IMG/VR virus record: IMGVR_UViG_3300008267_000391
Span: 1-23,599 of that record
DNA length: 23,599 nt
Source of the DNA: a virus
Direction: 5' to 3' (one strand)
Shown here: piece after piece, positions 1-20,382 of the stretch
Numbering within the stretch: position 1 is the stretch's first letter
How the letters are laid out: every line of letters starts with the position of its first letter
Translations under genes and position numbers: made by a program
Notes under the pieces: generated by a model
Database searches by the model: none
Told to the model about the DNA's origin: nothing
What the model saw: only the letters and a program-made list of their open reading frames with translations

Positions 1-3000
1 TGTTACGGTAGGGGTTATTAATCCTGTACATCCATTAGGGTCAGCTGCGATGATTAAACCTGTTCCACCTGAAACTTGGTACCATGCAAATCCATCAGAG
101 TAGAAACCATCTGTAGCCGGATTAGTTGGATTAGGTCCAGCATCTAAATAAATAAATTCACCCACATTAGGTGCGGTACCACCTGATGAAGGAGCGTATA
201 AAGTTTCAGGTGATGACCAATAGTCACTACAAGCCGTTGTCTCAGTAGTTCCTGTTCCTAAGGTGTAAGAGTAAAAACCTATGGTTGGAGTTACTGAAGT
301 TGTTATAGTTGGAGTTACAGATTTAGTTGGGGTCACTGTTGGGGTATTAGTTGGTGTCTCAGAAGGTGTCTGTGTCACTGTATTAGTATTAGTCGGAGTT
401 ATAGAAAGTGTTGGAGTTATAGTTGGTGTAATCGAAGGGGTAACAGTAGGTGTAGGACTTGGGCAAACACCAAACGCACCAACTACGTTACCTCCAGTAT
501 CAAGTTCGCACACAACTCCACCCAAAGAATAATATCCTGACATTACAACTGTAACAGGTCCATACTGTGAGTTATAGAATTCGCTATTGTAATCGAACAA
601 AGATGCTACACCATATATAGTAGTCGTACCCGTTCCAAAACAAGCGTCATACTGTGTAGCACCTGAACTAACTGAGAATAAATATCTATAACCACTCGGG
701 GTAATTGTTGGTGTAACCGATGGTGTAGGTGTTGTTGTTGCAGATATTGATGGAGTAATAGTTATAGTTGGGGTTATTGAAGGCGTTGGGGTTGGACTTA
801 CACAAATAACATCATTAATAGATGTACAATTTATTATAAAATCTATAATAATAGTAAAACTTATGGTTTCATCCCTATATCCACCTGAACCTGATGAAAC
901 TATACTTATGGCATTAGTATCTGCATCAACAACACAACTAACAATATTAGGTATTGTTAAAACCGAACTTTGTATAATTCCAGCAAAATAACCAAGGTCA
1001 GGTATATCATTAAATGATTGTGTATAATAAAAAGGGAATTGGTAGTCAATTCCTGAAATATTTACTCTAAATGAAAAAGTTGCACTACTTAAAGAACACC
1101 CAATAGCGTTTGAAACTAATGATGTATATCCAGAATACATCATATTCTTTAACGTAAACTTTGTCGACTGAGTTGTATTTACAGTACCTTCTTTAAATTT
1201 TACAGTATAATTAGAAGCACTTAATGGGTTACATGATATTGTTGTAAAGGTTTTTTGTGTACATCCACTATAATTTGAAATCGTTAAGCTGTAGGTTCCA
1301 GCGGTTAATCCTGTGACAAAAATACCTGTTTGATTTCCAACATTCTCACTCCAAGTAAAAGTAAAAGGACCATCAGCATCTTTAATTAATGCGGTAATTG
1401 TTCCTGAATTACCGTCAACACAACTTGTTGGATATAAAAATACTGAAAGTAAATCTGAAGAGGTGACAAATAAATCTTGACTTCTAGTACATCCAAATTG
1501 GTCCGTAACAAAAACAGTGTGTGGACCAGGTTTTAGTGAGTCAAATGTGTAAGACTCAGCAGGACTTTCGGGAGTTTTAAGTCCATTAGAGAGTGAATAA
1601 GTGTATTTTAAATCATTTCTAATTGGGTTGTTTACACTGACGCTAATACTTCCGTTATCCCCTCCGCACTGTGTTCCCACAGCAGATGCTGAAATATCAA
1701 AATTATAATAATTTTCTATTGTAATATTTTCATTATAGGTGCAAACCCCTTTAGTGTCGGTTATTGTAAGTAGATATGAACCTGGTGATAGTGAAGTGAA
1801 AGATGCCGAACTAGATATAACATTTTGACTTGATAAATTACCATTAATTCCTGATAGTGCGTAATTATATGGGGGTGACCCTCCTATTAAGTTTATATTA
1901 AGACTACCTGGTGCCAAACAATTGGCATCTTTTTTTATTGTGTTTATTACGGAAAATGAACTTGGTGTAAGTAAAGTAACTTTAGCTGAAGTAGTACAAA
2001 GACCTGAGTCAGTAACATTTAATGTGTAATTTCCAGAACTAAGACCTGTAAATGTAACTTGATTTGATAAAATAACTTGTGAATCACCGTTACTAAGTTG
2101 ATAATAAAATGGTGGTGTACCTCCTGAAAAATTAAATGTTATAGCACCATCACTTCCAAAACATGAGGGAGAAATAATAATATAGTCAATTAATCCAGGT
2201 TGTGGTGCAACTCCAACTGTTGCACTTTTTGTTTTTGTACATCCTCCCGCATCGGTAATAGTTAATGAATAAGTATTACTATTTAAACCGGTTATACTTA
2301 TGTTTGTGTTACCTGTTGTTATATTATAAGATGAATCAATATTTCCAGACCATTTGTAAGTATATGGTGGAGTTCCAGTCACACCTGTAAGGTGTATTTG
2401 ACCATTACCTAAAGAACAGAAAGGACTATCTATAACATAAAAACCAAAATCTAAATTAGAACTTGATTTTACCAAAGTTGTTTGGCTAGTTGCCATACAT
2501 CCACCTAAATCTTCAGCCATAACATAATATAATCCTGGTAATAAATTTATAAAACTACTGTAAACTGATGTAACAGTCTTAGCGGTAATAGGTTCAGTAG
2601 ATGTGGTATCAATACCTAAATTTATTGGCTGTCCACTAAAATCATATAATCTTAGAATATTTCTATTGTATATGTTTGGGGTATATACTTGTAATGCCCC
2701 ATTAGAACCTCCACAAAAAGTATTAGTTGTTGAACTTATACTTACTGTATTTGATGTTGTCACATAAAAACCTCCTGAAGATACTGAAGAGTCCAAATCA
2801 GTCAAATAAAACGTATAAGCTCCCCCGCTTAATCCAGTAATGACGTATGGATTTTCCGTTAAAGTTTGGGATGAAAAAGTAATTCCTGACACAGGATTAG
2901 TCCAAGTAATAGTCAAGGGTGGAGTTGAAGCGGTGTAACTTAAAGAAAACGCACCGAGAGATGAATTGGTGCAATCACCTGTCAAATTATAACTATAATT

Positions 3001-3012
3001 TATTTGTCCCAT
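1..3012 (-). CDS. SprB-repeat, Thr/Pro-linker phage adhesin or tail fibre (partial, C-terminus outside window)
   Basis: The frame is open for all 1004 codons from the ATG at 3010-3012 to the window edge, so the stop lies outside. Residues 14-584 hold seven modules of about 80-100 residues. Each begins near a Cys (14, 100, 199, 284, 365, 449, 531). The clearest carry G-T-P-P-Y/F-x-Y, then T/S-G-L-x-x-G/N-x-Y, then T-D or S-N before a closing Cys. This is the pattern of SprB/PKD-like repeats in Bacteroidota surface proteins. After a linking domain (about 585-738), Thr/Pro-rich linkers at 739-773 and 851-911 separate globular modules, and a third linker begins at 999. No signal peptide or membrane segment is visible, as expected for a virion protein. 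The start lies 3 bases after the GpI-like gene, in a TAATAGATG junction. I infer a receptor-binding fibre from repeats, size and position; a host-type adhesin function is less likely but not excluded. Confidence 0.8.
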   Translation of the reverse strand, partial: MGQINYSYNLTGDCTNSSLGAFSLSYTASTPPLTITWTNPVSGITFSSQTLTENPYVITGLSGGAYTFYLTDLDSSVSSGGFYVTTSNTVSISSTTNTFCGGSNGALQVYTPNIYNRNILRLYDFSGQPINLGIDTTSTEPITAKTVTSVYSSFINLLPGLYYVMAEDLGGCMATSQTTLVKSSSNLDFGFYVIDSPFCSLGNGQIHLTGVTGTPPYTYKWSGNIDSSYNITTGNTNISITGLNSNTYSLTITDAGGCTKTKSATVGVAPQPGLIDYIIISPSCFGSDGAITFNFSGGTPPFYYQLSNGDSQVILSNQVTFTGLSSGNYTLNVTDSGLCTTSAKVTLLTPSSFSVINTIKKDANCLAPGSLNINLIGGSPPYNYALSGINGNLSSQNVISSSASFTSLSPGSYLLTITDTKGVCTYNENITIENYYNFDISASAVGTQCGGDNGSISVSVNNPIRNDLKYTYSLSNGLKTPESPAESYTFDSLKPGPHTVFVTDQFGCTRSQDLFVTSSDLLSVFLYPTSCVDGNSGTITALIKDADGPFTFTWSENVGNQTGIFVTGLTAGTYSLTISNYSGCTQKTFTTISCNPLSASNYTVKFKEGTVNTTQSTKFTLKNMMYSGYTSLVSNAIGCSLSSATFSFRVNISGIDYQFPFYYTQSFNDIPDLGYFAGIIQSSVLTIPNIVSCVVDADTNAISIVSSGSGGYRDETISFTIIIDFIINCTSINDVICVSPTPTPSITPTITITPSISATTTPTPSVTPTITPSGYRYLFSVSSGATQYDACFGTGTTTIYGVASLFDYNSEFYNSQYGPVTVVMSGYYSLGGVVCELDTGGNVVGAFGVCPSPTPTVTPSITPTITPTLSITPTNTNTVTQTPSETPTNTPTVTPTKSVTPTITTSVTPTIGFYSYTLGTGTTETTACSDYWSSPETLYAPSSGGTAPNVGEFIYLDAGPNPTNPATDGFYSDGFAWYQVSGGTGLIIAADPNGCTGLITPTVT
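280..462 (-). repeat. Thr/Pro-rich linker 2
   Basis: This stretch encodes residues 851-911, a longer Thr/Pro/Ser run of units such as TPTVTPS and TPTNTPT. It separates two globular modules (about 774-850 and 912-998). Both of those modules open with an aromatic G-Y/F-x-Y/S-Y-x-x-x-x-G-x-x-T motif and a Cys about 5-8 residues further on. A third linker begins at 1-18 (I-T-P-T-V-T), so the linker-module unit probably continues beyond the window. Confidence 0.85.
694..798 (-). repeat. Thr/Pro-rich linker 1
   Basis: This stretch encodes residues 739-773 of the fibre-like protein. It is a low-complexity run of T-P, S-I-T-P and T-I-T-P units. Such runs usually form extended stalks between folded domains. 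At the DNA level it appears on the plus strand as imperfect GTTGGNGT-type units. Confidence 0.85.
1261..2973 (-). repeat. Seven degenerate SprB/PKD-like protein modules
   Basis: Successive module starts are spaced 86, 99, 85, 81, 84 and 82 residues apart. Modules 3 to 7 fit the consensus best, for example GTPPYTYKWSG with ITGL and NTYSLTITDAGGC in module 3, and GGTPPFYYQLSNG with FTGLSSGNYTLNVTD in module 4. Modules 2 to 7 each have a Cys near the start and a closing Cys (172, 258, 339, 424, 508, 584), so one disulfide or paired-Cys site per module is possible. Module 1 lacks the closing Cys. The copies are divergent at the DNA level, so this is an old protein repeat rather than a recent tandem duplication. 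Confidence 0.75.
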
Positions 3013-3015
3013 CTA

Positions 3016-5964
3016 TTATAAACAACCAAATTGTACATTTATGAATTGTAAATCAAATTCTACTGATTGTATCTGAATACAATCTTGAGATTGTAGAGTT
3101 AATACATTATTCTCAAAGGTTGCTTCTATACTTATAGTAATGAACTCCTCAAGTAAAAACCCAATCCCTTGTGTAATAAATGTACTCCAATCAGTATCTC
3201 TGATAATATAATCAGGAGCTTGGTAAATTGTAGGATTAGTATATTGTAAAGTATAAGTTTGTGAATTTTTCACAATCACTAGTTGGAATCCATACTGAAG
3301 ACTTTTAATAAACGGTACAGTTCCTCCGCAATCAACCTCATTTAAAAGAGCATTTGTTTGAAACTGTATTTCATTACCGTTATAGGTTAAATCGACAGTT
3401 ACGTCAGTGGTGTTACAATCGCTTGGGGCGAAACCTCCGAACACTTGTGGCCCCGCAACATTAAAATCAACAGGTAAACATCCTCTCTGTAATCTATAAA
3501 CAAATTTTTGTCTGTGAAAAATAGAATTTTCAATTCTTGTTCCAGTATTCCAAATAGTACTTGCAGGTATGAATTGTTCAACTAATCTTATCCAAAAATC
3601 GCCAATACCATTTATATACTTTGTCATTGCGGAGTATGAGAAATTATTATTTTGAATACCTAAATCATCATACATAGTAAGATATTTGTAGTATAAACTT
3701 TGTAAAGTAGGGTACCCACCTGTTTTACCATCAGATGACTGTTGTCTATGTCTAACATTAATCATATTAGTCCAAAAAGTTTCTTTAAATTCGAAAAAAT
3801 CTTTAACTTGTGGTTTTGGACTTATTACTGTTGAGTCAACATTTTCAAAAATTGCAAAATTTTCAGTTTCGGGTAATTTTGTTATTCCACTGTAAGGTAT
3901 TGGATAATTTTTAGTGTTTGACATATACCAAACATCATAAGTAAGGGCTTGAGCGGGATTTAAAAATAAATCAACATTTTTTACATTAAGAACTAATTTA
4001 TCATTTGCAACTTGATAGTAAGCGTCAAAATTACCGTCACTATTTTTTCTTAATTCTTGGCTTTCAATCCATGATTTTTTATTATCTATTGTTTTCTGTA
4101 ATTCAAATCCCGCACCTAAATATGGAAAATATCTAAATCTATCAAGATACTTTTCACCATAAGAAAATGGTTCCAATGTGGTTTGAACACTTGGACTTTC
4201 ACCTGTAAAAACACTTGTAACATTATCTATAATTTGTGGGCTTCTATGTTGTGGCGTAGACTCAAACCAACCTGAACCTTTTTGGAAATAAAAATTATCA
4301 CTATATTCAGGTACCTTTGGATAACCTTCGTCATCTAAGGGGTAATCATTTATAGTTACTGAAACGTCTTGTATGACAGTTGATGACGTGAACGCAGTGT
4401 ACGGTGCTCCGTTAAACCTGTAAGTATTAAGAGGGTCCAAAGTTGCAAATGAGTTTGTGAATGTCCCACCTAAAACTGTACTATATAAACTATTGAATCT
4501 TTGTAGTGAAAATTTGCCGTCAGCTAAATAAACATGTTCATTAAATTCAACTAAAGCCTCGGGAGCACCAATATTACTCATAAGAAATTCAATCGCCCTT
4601 CTTGTACCTTTAGATTTAAAAAGGTAGGCAGAGTTCATTATTAAATTTCTATAGTATTGATAATTTAGTTCATCAGTAGATAAACCATTAACTAAACCTG
4701 GAAAATCACTTGTGTTTTGTTGGTAGATTGTAGATAAAAATCCATCACTTTGGACTGGTGAAATATTAGTTTTCCATCCCAAAGTTTCAGCAACATTTGG
4801 TAATAATTTAGATGGTACATCATTTCCAACATTATAATTTATTGAAACCATGTGAGATATGGAGTCAATATATTTTTTACTTTCGTCAAAACTTCTCCCG
4901 TAAATCTTCAAAGTTTTTACGGCTTTACCGTCCATAGTATCAAATTCCTTTAAAGATTCGGTTGTATAAAATCTTGAAACTAAATCGGTTTGGTCTTGGT
5001 CAAAACTTTGTCCAATTATATCAAGTTTTTCTAAGTACTTAATATATGCCGGTGACTTAATATCTAAGTTCCACAAACCATCCAATGGCCAAGTAAGTAC
5101 TTCAAGTTTGATAAAATCATTTCCGTCAGGTGCCTCTGTTTTAACTTGGAACTTTGAGGTGTAGATTGGGTATGTATATCTATTTAATAGTAATTCTTCA
5201 ACTTCATCTAATTCTAAATTAAAAATTTCATTTACCGTAAAATCATTCGGTCTAATAATTAAAGTCTGTGTTGTAGTTGGTGTCCCGCTAAATGGATTAC
5301 CTTTAACTAAAATAGATAAGGTTCCCGCCGTTAAAGAAGTAGTTCCAGTCATATCAACAACACTGTAGGAACCGCTGGAGGTTTCCAAAATGTAACTACT
5401 ATAATAAGAAGAAAAATCTCTGTATTTTGAAACTTCAAATTCTAAAGAAGAAATATTTACAGATGAATTACGAGAATAATCAATATAAAAAGGATTACTC
5501 AAAGTAGAGGCGTCAAATTGTATAAAAGTAAAATCTTCTTCAGAGTTATATGATATATTAAATGCCGTATTACCCGTAGAGTAATTGGACCTTATGGTAT
5601 TTGACTCAATAGCCGCAGGAAAATGGTTAATTATATTAATAACCGCAGCCGAAAATCTTTTACTTAGTGGTCCATAGGCGACAAAATTTAAAACATTAGT
5701 TTCGTCAAAATTAGGATAAATTTTAAAATTAACATTGTTGATTTTTGCGGCTTGTACTGTATCGGTAATTTGTAGATTGTCTAAAGTATAGGGTAATGAA
5801 AATGTACCAGTGTCAAAAAAACGATTATCTTTTTCTGTTACAGTAGTTGTGAATTGAAAATTACCTTGCGTAAGTCCCCCTCCTTGGACTACTTGTAGTC
5901 CAACAATATTATCAAAAGGATTTGCTTCGGATATTCTTTGTTGTGGGGGGCAAGTATATGACAT
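3016..5964 (-). CDS. Baseplate/tail protein with GpI/gp7-like region
   Basis: This is a 982-residue protein with no signal peptide or membrane segment. Residues about 305-475 contain helical segments ending in L-F-K-S-K-G-T-R-R-A-I-E-F-L (448-461). A K-G-T-x-x-A-I-E motif of this kind is characteristic of phage tail protein GpI, which corresponds to part of T4 wedge protein gp7. Upstream of it is an N-L-G-W-like turn, here E-T-L-G-W (393-397). A second notable block near residues 780-850 includes V-E-Q-F-I-P-A-S-T-I-W and an F-H-R-Q-K-F pattern. The N-terminal 250 residues and the C-terminal 120 look beta-rich. The gene starts 3 bases after the previous stop, with consecutive TAA and TAG codons before the ATG, and is followed 3 bases later by the fibre-like gene. 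Its place just before the fibre supports a GpI-type wedge role. The family match is by eye and moderate; the whole protein is far longer than P2 GpI. Confidence 0.6.
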   Translation of the reverse strand: MSYTCPPQQRISEANPFDNIVGLQVVQGGGLTQGNFQFTTTVTEKDNRFFDTGTFSLPYTLDNLQITDTVQAAKINNVNFKIYPNFDETNVLNFVAYGPLSKRFSAAVINIINHFPAAIESNTIRSNYSTGNTAFNISYNSEEDFTFIQFDASTLSNPFYIDYSRNSSVNISSLEFEVSKYRDFSSYYSSYILETSSGSYSVVDMTGTTSLTAGTLSILVKGNPFSGTPTTTQTLIIRPNDFTVNEIFNLELDEVEELLLNRYTYPIYTSKFQVKTEAPDGNDFIKLEVLTWPLDGLWNLDIKSPAYIKYLEKLDIIGQSFDQDQTDLVSRFYTTESLKEFDTMDGKAVKTLKIYGRSFDESKKYIDSISHMVSINYNVGNDVPSKLLPNVAETLGWKTNISPVQSDGFLSTIYQQNTSDFPGLVNGLSTDELNYQYYRNLIMNSAYLFKSKGTRRAIEFLMSNIGAPEALVEFNEHVYLADGKFSLQRFNSLYSTVLGGTFTNSFATLDPLNTYRFNGAPYTAFTSSTVIQDVSVTINDYPLDDEGYPKVPEYSDNFYFQKGSGWFESTPQHRSPQIIDNVTSVFTGESPSVQTTLEPFSYGEKYLDRFRYFPYLGAGFELQKTIDNKKSWIESQELRKNSDGNFDAYYQVANDKLVLNVKNVDLFLNPAQALTYDVWYMSNTKNYPIPYSGITKLPETENFAIFENVDSTVISPKPQVKDFFEFKETFWTNMINVRHRQQSSDGKTGGYPTLQSLYYKYLTMYDDLGIQNNNFSYSAMTKYINGIGDFWIRLVEQFIPASTIWNTGTRIENSIFHRQKFVYRLQRGCLPVDFNVAGPQVFGGFAPSDCNTTDVTVDLTYNGNEIQFQTNALLNEVDCGGTVPFIKSLQYGFQLVIVKNSQTYTLQYTNPTIYQAPDYIIRDTDWSTFITQGIGFLLEEFITISIEATFENNVLTLQSQDCIQIQSVEFDLQFINVQFGCL

Positions 5965-18092: not shown

Positions 18093-19931
18093 TTAAGAGA
18101 AATTGACAGTGGATAAATTCTTAACTCTTATTCTAATATCTTGTCCTGGAAACCTCACCTGATATATTTGTGTTGGTTCAGCAAATATTGTATCATCAAT
18201 TAATTCAATCTTTCTTGTAAGTGGGTCTGAATACCTTTGTGAGGTTTCAGAAGATGAGTATTGCCCACCAACATTATTGAATACTGAAATGTCTGAAATA
18301 GACACAACTCCATTTTCTGATTGGATTAATCTTCTAAGTTCAGAGATATTTACATTTTGTCCCATTTCTCTTCCACTTGGACTCATAAAGTTCTCAACTA
18401 GAATGATTACATTTGAAATTACAACTCCTTGATTTTGTGTGGCATCTAATACTAATGATAAATCAAAAGTTAAATCAATAACTGAGGCTGATGTAATAAA
18501 AATATAATCATTAATCATTCTGTAATTTGAAAGATAATTTGCTAGATTATTTTTTAGAGTATCAGATATTACAGGTATTAACTTACCTGTTGAGTCATAA
18601 GATAATACATTTATTTTAATCTTATTATCTTCTTCGGTTATTGCGACTTTAGCGGGAGCCCCAAATTGTGATGGCATTTTTCTAATTAAAGACTCGTAAT
18701 CGTTAATTGTAACAGCCCTGTTTTGGGATGCAAAATTAAATGTTGTATAGTTTCTAACTTCTTCTGTTGTCGGTACACTTGCACCTCCAATTGCGGCAGT
18801 TATATTAGTACAAGATAAAGAATTAATTACCGCAGTATTAATTGTGCTTAAAGGACCTGTAACAACAAAATTAACAGTTCCTACATTGTTAATAACATTA
18901 ACACCTAAGTTACTTCCTAATCCCCCTCCAATTCTATATTGTACAAACAAAGTTGAATTGGGTTTCAAGACTGAACCTAATGAAAAATTATTCTGATACT
19001 TAGCTAAGTCAAGTGGTGTACCATTTCTTGCAAATTCTCTTAATAATTCATCTGATGATATATTACCTCCTCCAAATGTCATTTTCAAAAATCCCTCAGG
19101 AGTAAATTCAGTAATAAATCTACTTGTTGTTTGTACATACTTACCAACTTTAATTCCAGGAGTATCTGAAGGTTTGGTGGGGTCTTCAGTAAAAATTCTA
19201 TCCTCAGCAAGAGCTTGTACTTCATACCATCTATTTGCCGTTCCCAAAAACTCTTGTACGGTTGGAACATTAGTGTAATTTGTACCGTCCTTTAATAGAA
19301 CACTTGTTACACCCAAAACATTTTTTTCAGGTAAAAATATCTCATAGAATGGTCTTGACTCCGCATCTGTAATTGTTTTTCTAAAAACTTTTGTAATACC
19401 ATTAACAACCGCCTCTCTTTTAATAATAGTATAACTTATCAACTGATTATTGGCATCAAAATTTGGTATTTTCTTTTTATTAGGAAATCCTTCTGCGTTA
19501 TATTCTGAAGCAAAATCAATATCATTAATTAATTCAAAAATTTGACCTGCTCCTTGTACTTGACTTCCTCTCCTGAGTATACCACAATATCTAATATCTT
19601 CTTTATCTCCAAATACAGGAACAACAATTGAGAATTCACATAGTGCAACTGATGGTCTCTGTCCTGGTACTTTTAATCCATAAGTTCTTGCAATATTGAA
19701 AACTGATGACCTTTGTTGAGCATACTGTAATACAGTTTCTTGGAGACTTCGGTCAATGTGAAAATGTAAATTGTCTGTTACGGCAGCGTTTAAATCCATG
19801 AATACACTAAAAATAGCCGCGTCATTAAAGTTTGCAACTAGTTCAGGATAATAGGTTTTTGTAAAATTTATAAGTTCCGCTCTTATTCCTTGGAAGTCTC
19901 TTGTTGTATAAGATATTTGTTTGTTTGCCAT
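18093..19931 (-). CDS. Baseplate wedge protein, gp6/GpJ-like
   Basis: This 612-residue protein carries the hallmarks of T4 gp6-like (Baseplate J superfamily) wedge proteins. The N-terminus has S-Y-T-T-R-D-F-x-x-I-R-A-E-L (7-20), Y-Y-P-E-L, a helical D-L-N-A-A-V-T-D-N-L-H-F-H-I-D block (46-60), and R-x-x-V-F-N-I-A-R-x-Y-G-L (74-86). The later conserved block T-F-N-F-A-S-Q-N-R-A-V-T-I-N-D-Y-E-S-L (397-415) is a strong family signature, followed by a beta-rich C-terminal arm. In known phages two copies of gp6 join wedge neighbours to close the ring around the hub. The ATG lies 4 bases after the gp25-like stop, giving the 25-6 (W-J) pair common in contractile phages. The length is close to T4 gp6. 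Assignment is confident; the name follows T4 usage and is not given as a symbol. Confidence 0.9.
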   Translation of the reverse strand: MANKQISYTTRDFQGIRAELINFTKTYYPELVANFNDAAIFSVFMDLNAAVTDNLHFHIDRSLQETVLQYAQQRSSVFNIARTYGLKVPGQRPSVALCEFSIVVPVFGDKEDIRYCGILRRGSQVQGAGQIFELINDIDFASEYNAEGFPNKKKIPNFDANNQLISYTIIKREAVVNGITKVFRKTITDAESRPFYEIFLPEKNVLGVTSVLLKDGTNYTNVPTVQEFLGTANRWYEVQALAEDRIFTEDPTKPSDTPGIKVGKYVQTTSRFITEFTPEGFLKMTFGGGNISSDELLREFARNGTPLDLAKYQNNFSLGSVLKPNSTLFVQYRIGGGLGSNLGVNVINNVGTVNFVVTGPLSTINTAVINSLSCTNITAAIGGASVPTTEEVRNYTTFNFASQNRAVTINDYESLIRKMPSQFGAPAKVAITEEDNKIKINVLSYDSTGKLIPVISDTLKNNLANYLSNYRMINDYIFITSASVIDLTFDLSLVLDATQNQGVVISNVIILVENFMSPSGREMGQNVNISELRRLIQSENGVVSISDISVFNNVGGQYSSSETSQRYSDPLTRKIELIDDTIFAEPTQIYQVRFPGQDIRIRVKNLSTVNFS

Positions 19932-19935
19932 GTTC

Positions 19936-20382
19936 TTATAAATTTATAATTATAAAGTCACTAGAATTAAATACATTGTTAGTTATAGTGTAATCAATTC
20001 TAACTTTAGCTGTGTACTCAACTGTTGACCTGCCGGGCATATCAAAAGTTTTAACATCAGTGTTACCATTAACTGGTTCATCATCAGTTGCAGGGTATAC
20101 GGATATATTATTAACTTGCAAATTAGGAATATAGGTACTTACAGAATCTCGTATTTCAGCTTCTATTTGATTAAATGTTGGTCCATCAAGTGGTTCAAAT
20201 ATAAATTCATATAACCTTGTCCCAAAATCAGGTAAGAAATATCTACTACCTTTTCTTGTCAACAGAAGATGGATTAAACTACTTCTAATTTCTTCATCTT
20301 CATAATCTGAAAGGTCTAAATATTTTCCATCAAATGAATCTCTGAAAGGAAAAGTTACACCATATGTTTTTCCATTTGCCAT
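19936..20382 (-). CDS. Baseplate wedge protein, gp25/GpW-like
   Basis: This 148-residue protein matches the small gp25-like wedge family. An E-I-R-S-S-L-I-H-L-L-L-T helix (31-42) leads into R-K-G-S-R-Y-F-L-P-D-F-G-T-R-L-Y-E-F and the conserved F-E-P (62-64). A C-terminal beta hairpin with R-V-D/I-Y-type strands follows. In T4 and P2 this protein nucleates sheath assembly on the baseplate wedge. The family is called lysozyme-like by historical annotation, but no lysozyme catalytic motif is visible. It directly precedes the gp6-like gene, 4 bases apart. The stop region includes a 14-base perfect palindrome, TTATAAATTTATAA (19936-19949), which encodes the last residues and may be chance in AT-rich DNA. 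Confidence 0.9.
   Translation of the reverse strand: MANGKTYGVTFPFRDSFDGKYLDLSDYEDEEIRSSLIHLLLTRKGSRYFLPDFGTRLYEFIFEPLDGPTFNQIEAEIRDSVSTYIPNLQVNNISVYPATDDEPVNGNTDVKTFDMPGRSTVEYTAKVRIDYTITNNVFNSSDFIIINL

Follow-up and report, generated by a model that had tools for sequence, protein, structure and literature searches.

Seven conserved SprB-like modules in a tail-block protein of uncultured phages suggest a fixed stalk bearing exchangeable tips

Results and discussion

The window analysed here, a viral contig fragment of 23.6 kb (23,599 nucleotides), has at its low-coordinate edge a gene whose product carries seven consecutive SprB-like modules, a C-terminal alpha/beta domain and a variable tip region. 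This product is probably a conserved virion stalk situated by the baseplate and displaying exchangeable tips. The coexistence of a fixed scaffold and exchangeable tips in one protein points to the parts that may decide host contact, and a module family previously known from Bacteroidota adhesins would be added to the Ig-like modules of phage tails. The phage collection searched contains no close relative of the carriers, which represent a widespread group of uncultured phages.

Module identity and predicted fold

The module gene starts with an ATG at position 3012 and stays open to base 1 of the window, with no stop codon before the edge (Table 1), while its complete relatives encode 606–1223 aa. 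The first-pass annotation had placed SprB-like modules at 1261–2973, a span equivalent to residues 14–584 and hence to nearly all of the seven modules, and the gene runs on past them into a C-terminal domain, P/T-rich linkers and small domains. The seven modules are real, with a motif far above chance. The Pfam SprB profile (PF13573) scored 43.6 bits over the protein as a whole (E 2.3e-11; cut-off 28 bits), four stretches passed individually and the best match lay in module 4 (residues 282–310); the same profile matched 41/41 aligned relatives at E <= 0.01 and gave no match in any of 14 control genomes when run on their raw DNA. A profile made from the modules of the window protein and of its relatives recovered all seven window modules, with single-module E-values of 1.6e-8 to 3.4e-24. 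Cys14 of module 1 is present in 41/41 relatives and the Cys pairs of modules 2–6 are kept in 39–41 of 41; among bacterial modules, 96% contain at least two Cys.

The Ig/PKD-like fold proposed at first pass was also obtained by prediction, as AlphaFold2, run on an alignment of 41 sequences, modelled seven consecutive all-beta beta-sandwich modules (mean pLDDT 80) ending in an alpha/beta domain. The low pTM (0.37) is as would be expected of beads on a flexible string. In Foldseek searches the top PDB match was GhpA of Aureispira (3.2e-21), with Ig-domain proteins also among the best folds, and the top viral model was an uncultured phage protein labelled 'SprB repeat' (1.3e-68, 38% identity). Whole-chain TM-scores were low (0.15–0.37), and the fold claim therefore holds per module only.

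Table 1 Features of the window and of related loci. Positions refer to the window unless a locus (L) is named.
Feature	Position	Strand	Evidence
Module gene, 1004 aa in window, 3' end cut by contig edge	1..3012	-	ORF list; Pfam SprB 2.3e-11
All seven modules (residues 1-594)	1231-3012	-	
Module 1 (residues 1-92), family-wide TGDC motif, invariant Cys14	2737..3012	-	Module profile 4e-13; modelled beta strands
Module 2 (residues 93-184), Cys100/Cys172	2461..2736	-	Module profile 1.6e-8; Cys pair in 39/41
Module 3 (residues 185-270), Cys199/Cys258	2203..2460	-	Module profile 1.3e-23
Module 4 (residues 271-350), Cys284/Cys339	1963..2202	-	Module profile 3.4e-24; Cys pair in 41/41
Module 5 (residues 351-434), Cys365/Cys424	1711..1962	-	Module profile 7.6e-18; Cys pair in 41/41
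Module 6 (residues 435-520), Cys449/Cys508	1453..1710	-	Module profile 4.4e-17; Cys pair in 41/41
Module 7 (residues 521-594), Cys584 invariant	1231..1452	-	Module profile 9.7e-18
Conserved C-terminal alpha/beta domain (residues 613-738)	799..1176	-	Model; hhalign to upstream protein's C-terminus
Variable tip region (residues 739-1004), cut by window edge	1..798	-	P/T-rich linkers and two small Cys-containing domains
Upstream virion-block gene, 982 aa	3016..5964	-	Adjoins module gene throughout
C-terminal domain of upstream protein (residues 848-982)	3019..3423	-	Homologous to module protein's C-terminal domain
Baseplate J / T4 gp6-like wedge protein	18093..19931	-	phrog_219 baseplate wedge 1.1e-16
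gp25-like baseplate wedge protein	19936..20382	-	Pfam GPW_gp25 1.6e-12; phrog_261 3.7e-18
166-aa gene carrying upstream protein's C-terminal domain	L073:7497-7997; L095:7497-7997; L076:7476-7976		

Gene context and phage type

All large genes of the window lie on the minus strand according to the ORF list, in the order ribonucleotide reductase, a small gene matching phrog_3704, a gp25-like gene, a baseplate J (BpJ)/gp6-like gene, a gene for a 2305-aa protein, four smaller genes without assignment, the 982-aa gene and, last and running off the window, the module gene. The tail and baseplate context proposed at first pass is thus upheld by the gp25 and BpJ genes upstream of the module gene in the window and by conserved synteny, and in a 140-kb relative (L005) the genome that holds the module gene also encodes tail tube, baseplate hub and head-tail adaptor proteins. 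This conserved place in a structural gene block supports membership among tailed-phage virion proteins, and the product would be structural, in a phage with a contractile tail and a T4-like baseplate. In the 140-kb relative, a TnpB/OrfB-like gene (403 aa, judged from sequence) lies within the cluster of fibre genes, at L005:15363-16574.

An alignment search of the viral collection returned 76 loci with the module gene, and a homologue of the 982-aa gene lies upstream of it in each of the 73 loci whose upstream sequence is long enough, the remaining three starting inside the module gene. The first-pass description of this neighbour as GpI-like could not be confirmed: Tail_P2_I (GpI) had no match in the upstream protein of the window and matched 2/26 relatives with a best E of 0.1. 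That protein matched no PHROG family, profile, PDB and structure searches gave no confident family, and its structure model (pLDDT 57) was too poor for use. In the regions compared of Flavobacterium phage immuto and Microcystis phage Mel-JY01, the isolates nearest by the BpJ gene, a homologue of neither gene was detectable.

The BpJ and reductase genes have phages of Bacteroidota among their closest relatives, and the sequence evidence weakly suggests Bacteroidota as the most likely host. Promoter motif and Shine-Dalgarno content were dropped as host evidence; Bacteroidota-type promoter spacing was only slightly in excess (47 vs 45 in one scrambled control) and hence was not used for host assignment. 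When the whole module protein was compared with bacterial genomes, the best matches were other SprB-repeat proteins, none of them close over the full length, which fits a virulent phage.

Conservation of the module array

Exactly seven modules were found in 50/50 distinct complete homologues, down to ~31% identity, whereas module counts of bacterial proteins vary, with a median of 15.5 and a maximum of 83. Modules are also less alike within a phage protein than within a bacterial one (mean of maximum identities 38% vs 61%). In a tree combining modules of 15 phages with 202 bacterial modules, clean clades containing 15/15 phages (support 0.96–1.00) were obtained for six of the seven positions, and module 6 was split; in a second sample most positions again gave such clades, some of them less well supported. 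Module 3, the most conserved (mean pairwise identity 49%), formed a single positional clade in both samples, and in both trees the phage modules stood mostly apart from the bacterial (host) modules. Values of dN/dS among close pairs were 0.05–0.14 in the modules and 0.02–0.09 in the upstream gene, indicating similar, purifying selection.

The constant count, the positional clades and purifying selection together indicate that the array was fixed before the phage group diversified. Two readings are accordingly not supported. Recent capture from the host does not fit an array that always has seven modules, mostly positional orthologues, under purifying selection, although the array may derive from bacterial modules in the distant past. 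Nor is there support for an array that varies with host surfaces, as what varies are cassettes at the ends of the protein, outside the modules. The modules resemble a stalk fixed long ago, with the tip beyond them as the swappable part.

Shared C-terminal domain and variable tips

Residues 613–738 of the module protein aligned with the C-terminal 135 residues of the upstream protein at an hhalign probability of 96.6% (E 5.8e-10), compared with 0.6% and 0.3% for control segments, and the shared-domain profile also found 19 upstream homologues directly. The domain is modelled as a helix (621–633), strands, a second helix (673–684) and further strands. In three phages the upstream protein's version is encoded on its own, by a 166-aa gene lying between the other two. 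The shared domain probably joins both proteins or docks each on the tail, and, being common to two adjacent virion-block proteins, it may be a new tail-docking element.

Roughly half of the homologues end within a few to some 30 residues after this domain, and most others carry an extra ~130–490 residues, often with P/T-rich linkers. The tip region is absent from L007 and L013 and continues to residue 1104 in L005; part of that of the window matches phrog_15511. The exchange of tips is illustrated by L065 and L087, in which 732 of the first 740 residues are identical and similarity extends through the first tip domain, while the ends (about 325 and 125 residues, respectively) are unrelated to each other. 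Tips in L057 and L082 match DUF285 (1.2e-55 and 1.6e-48), those in L061 and L063 are PEBP-like, and others contain Cys-rich domains. At least four loci have an extra Cys-rich domain N-terminal of module 1.

Proposed role and alternatives

We propose that the seven SprB-type Ig-like modules would form a semi-flexible rod that serves as a stalk, or spacer, of constant length. Where P/T-rich linkers and exchangeable small domains occur, they would follow the alpha/beta domain or, more rarely, precede module 1, and would probably be the variable part contacting a surface or receptor. We infer the location on the tail, the orientation and ligand binding by the tips. The N-terminal extra domain of some relatives means that the stalk could be oriented either way, and in the half of the homologues that are tipless, either the variable binding would fall to another gene or the stalk would itself bind.

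This last option leads to a different reading, which we regard as unlikely, in which the modules are themselves a putative adhesin for polysaccharide or cell-surface structures and their conservation reflects a conserved ligand. It would account for the missing tips and agrees with the membership of the family in bacterial surface adhesins, with the GhpA grappling hook as nearest solved fold and with the Ig-like domains of other phages that have been linked to cell or mucus binding (PMC10385173; PMC13370021). The fixed count, the positional orthology and a purifying selection near that of the adjacent structural gene nevertheless argue against it, whereas it is the tips that vary.

A Hoc-like head decoration, in which the C-terminal alpha/beta domain would anchor the Ig-like string to the capsid, appears very improbable. 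The module gene adjoins a gene of the baseplate block, with a C-terminal domain common to both products, and no Hoc-like PHROG family matches the window core, against which stand matches of 7/41 and 6/41 members to two Hoc-like PHROGs and a layout of N-terminal Ig-like domains and an alpha/beta C-terminal docking domain as in T4 Hoc (PMC10385173). We likewise give very little credence to an extension by analogy, in which the modules of the proposed stalk would pair with SprB-type adhesins of a gliding host and so recruit the virion, or carry it along as the adhesins move, before a tip engages a final receptor; its only basis is a published discussion of SprB as a potential phage receptor (PMC13288928).

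That the gene encodes a bacterial secreted protein or a recently captured host adhesin rather than a virion part is extremely unlikely, since, despite module relatives throughout Bacteroidota genomes and a phage record holding a bacterial-type SprB protein (below), no signal peptide is visible, no C-terminal sorting domain was found in the complete relatives scanned, the tail-block synteny is conserved and the modules are mostly separate from bacterial ones in the trees. The N-terminus (MGQINYSYNLTGDC) has no hydrophobic stretch as judged by eye, and the sorting domain looked for was that of the T9SS. Por_Secre_tail was rejected as a secretion signal, its matches being weak and the two that were located lying on modules.

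Comparison with known systems and further SprB-like proteins

The phage protein has in common with the SprB repeat family (PF13573) the module type, the Ig-like fold and Cys near both module ends. It differs from the gliding adhesin SprB and the other secreted Bacteroidota surface proteins of this family in its fixed seven divergent modules, its place in a tail block and the absence of a visible signal peptide or T9SS sorting domain. GhpA, the Aureispira grappling hook (PDB 9flp and related), is also matched significantly by profile (1.4e-4), but is a bacterial protein of 5898 residues with ~17% identity to the phage protein.

The closest precedents are the crAssphage BACON arrays and T4 Hoc. 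The tail-associated BACON protein of crAssphage has a stable array of Ig-like modules of a Bacteroidota-surface type and a poorly conserved C-terminus (PMC6949934), but belongs to another phage group and consists of eight copies of the BACON family arisen by duplications. T4 Hoc resembles the module protein in having several Ig-like domains in a row and an alpha/beta domain at the C-terminus (PMC10385173), but is bound to the capsid and varies in Ig number, and the likeness of the C-terminal domains is one of layout. UniProt A0A6J5LD72 ('SprB repeat', uncultured Caudovirales phage), 38% identical over the whole length, belongs to the same protein family and bears a database label only. The open-access literature gave no description of the phage module protein, and the one paper located there that mentions both 'SprB repeat' and 'phage' concerns bacterial toxins. 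The wac neck-whisker (fibritin) proteins of RB43-type phages are weakly similar (E 2e-3) to residues 196–366 of a distant relative, corresponding to its modules 3–5.

A tblastn search of the phage collection with the window protein returned only LR756502, a 642-kb record, which was rejected as a phage homologue since it encodes a bacterial-type secreted SprB protein. This 1670-aa SprB-repeat protein of the 'uncultured phage' record LR756502.1 (~514.4–519.4 kb; L016:13597-18609) combines a signal peptide with a C-terminal domain of the gliding type, as in a bacterial secreted adhesin. The next gene downstream of the module gene (~320 aa; L005:13351-14319, L013:15193-16170) encodes a SprB-like start, a P/T-rich linker and a conserved C-terminus. 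Two more proteins with SprB-like modules are encoded in a different part of the genome of the 140-kb relative, near other fibre-like genes (L019:10980-13409 and L019:8769-10937, minus strand).
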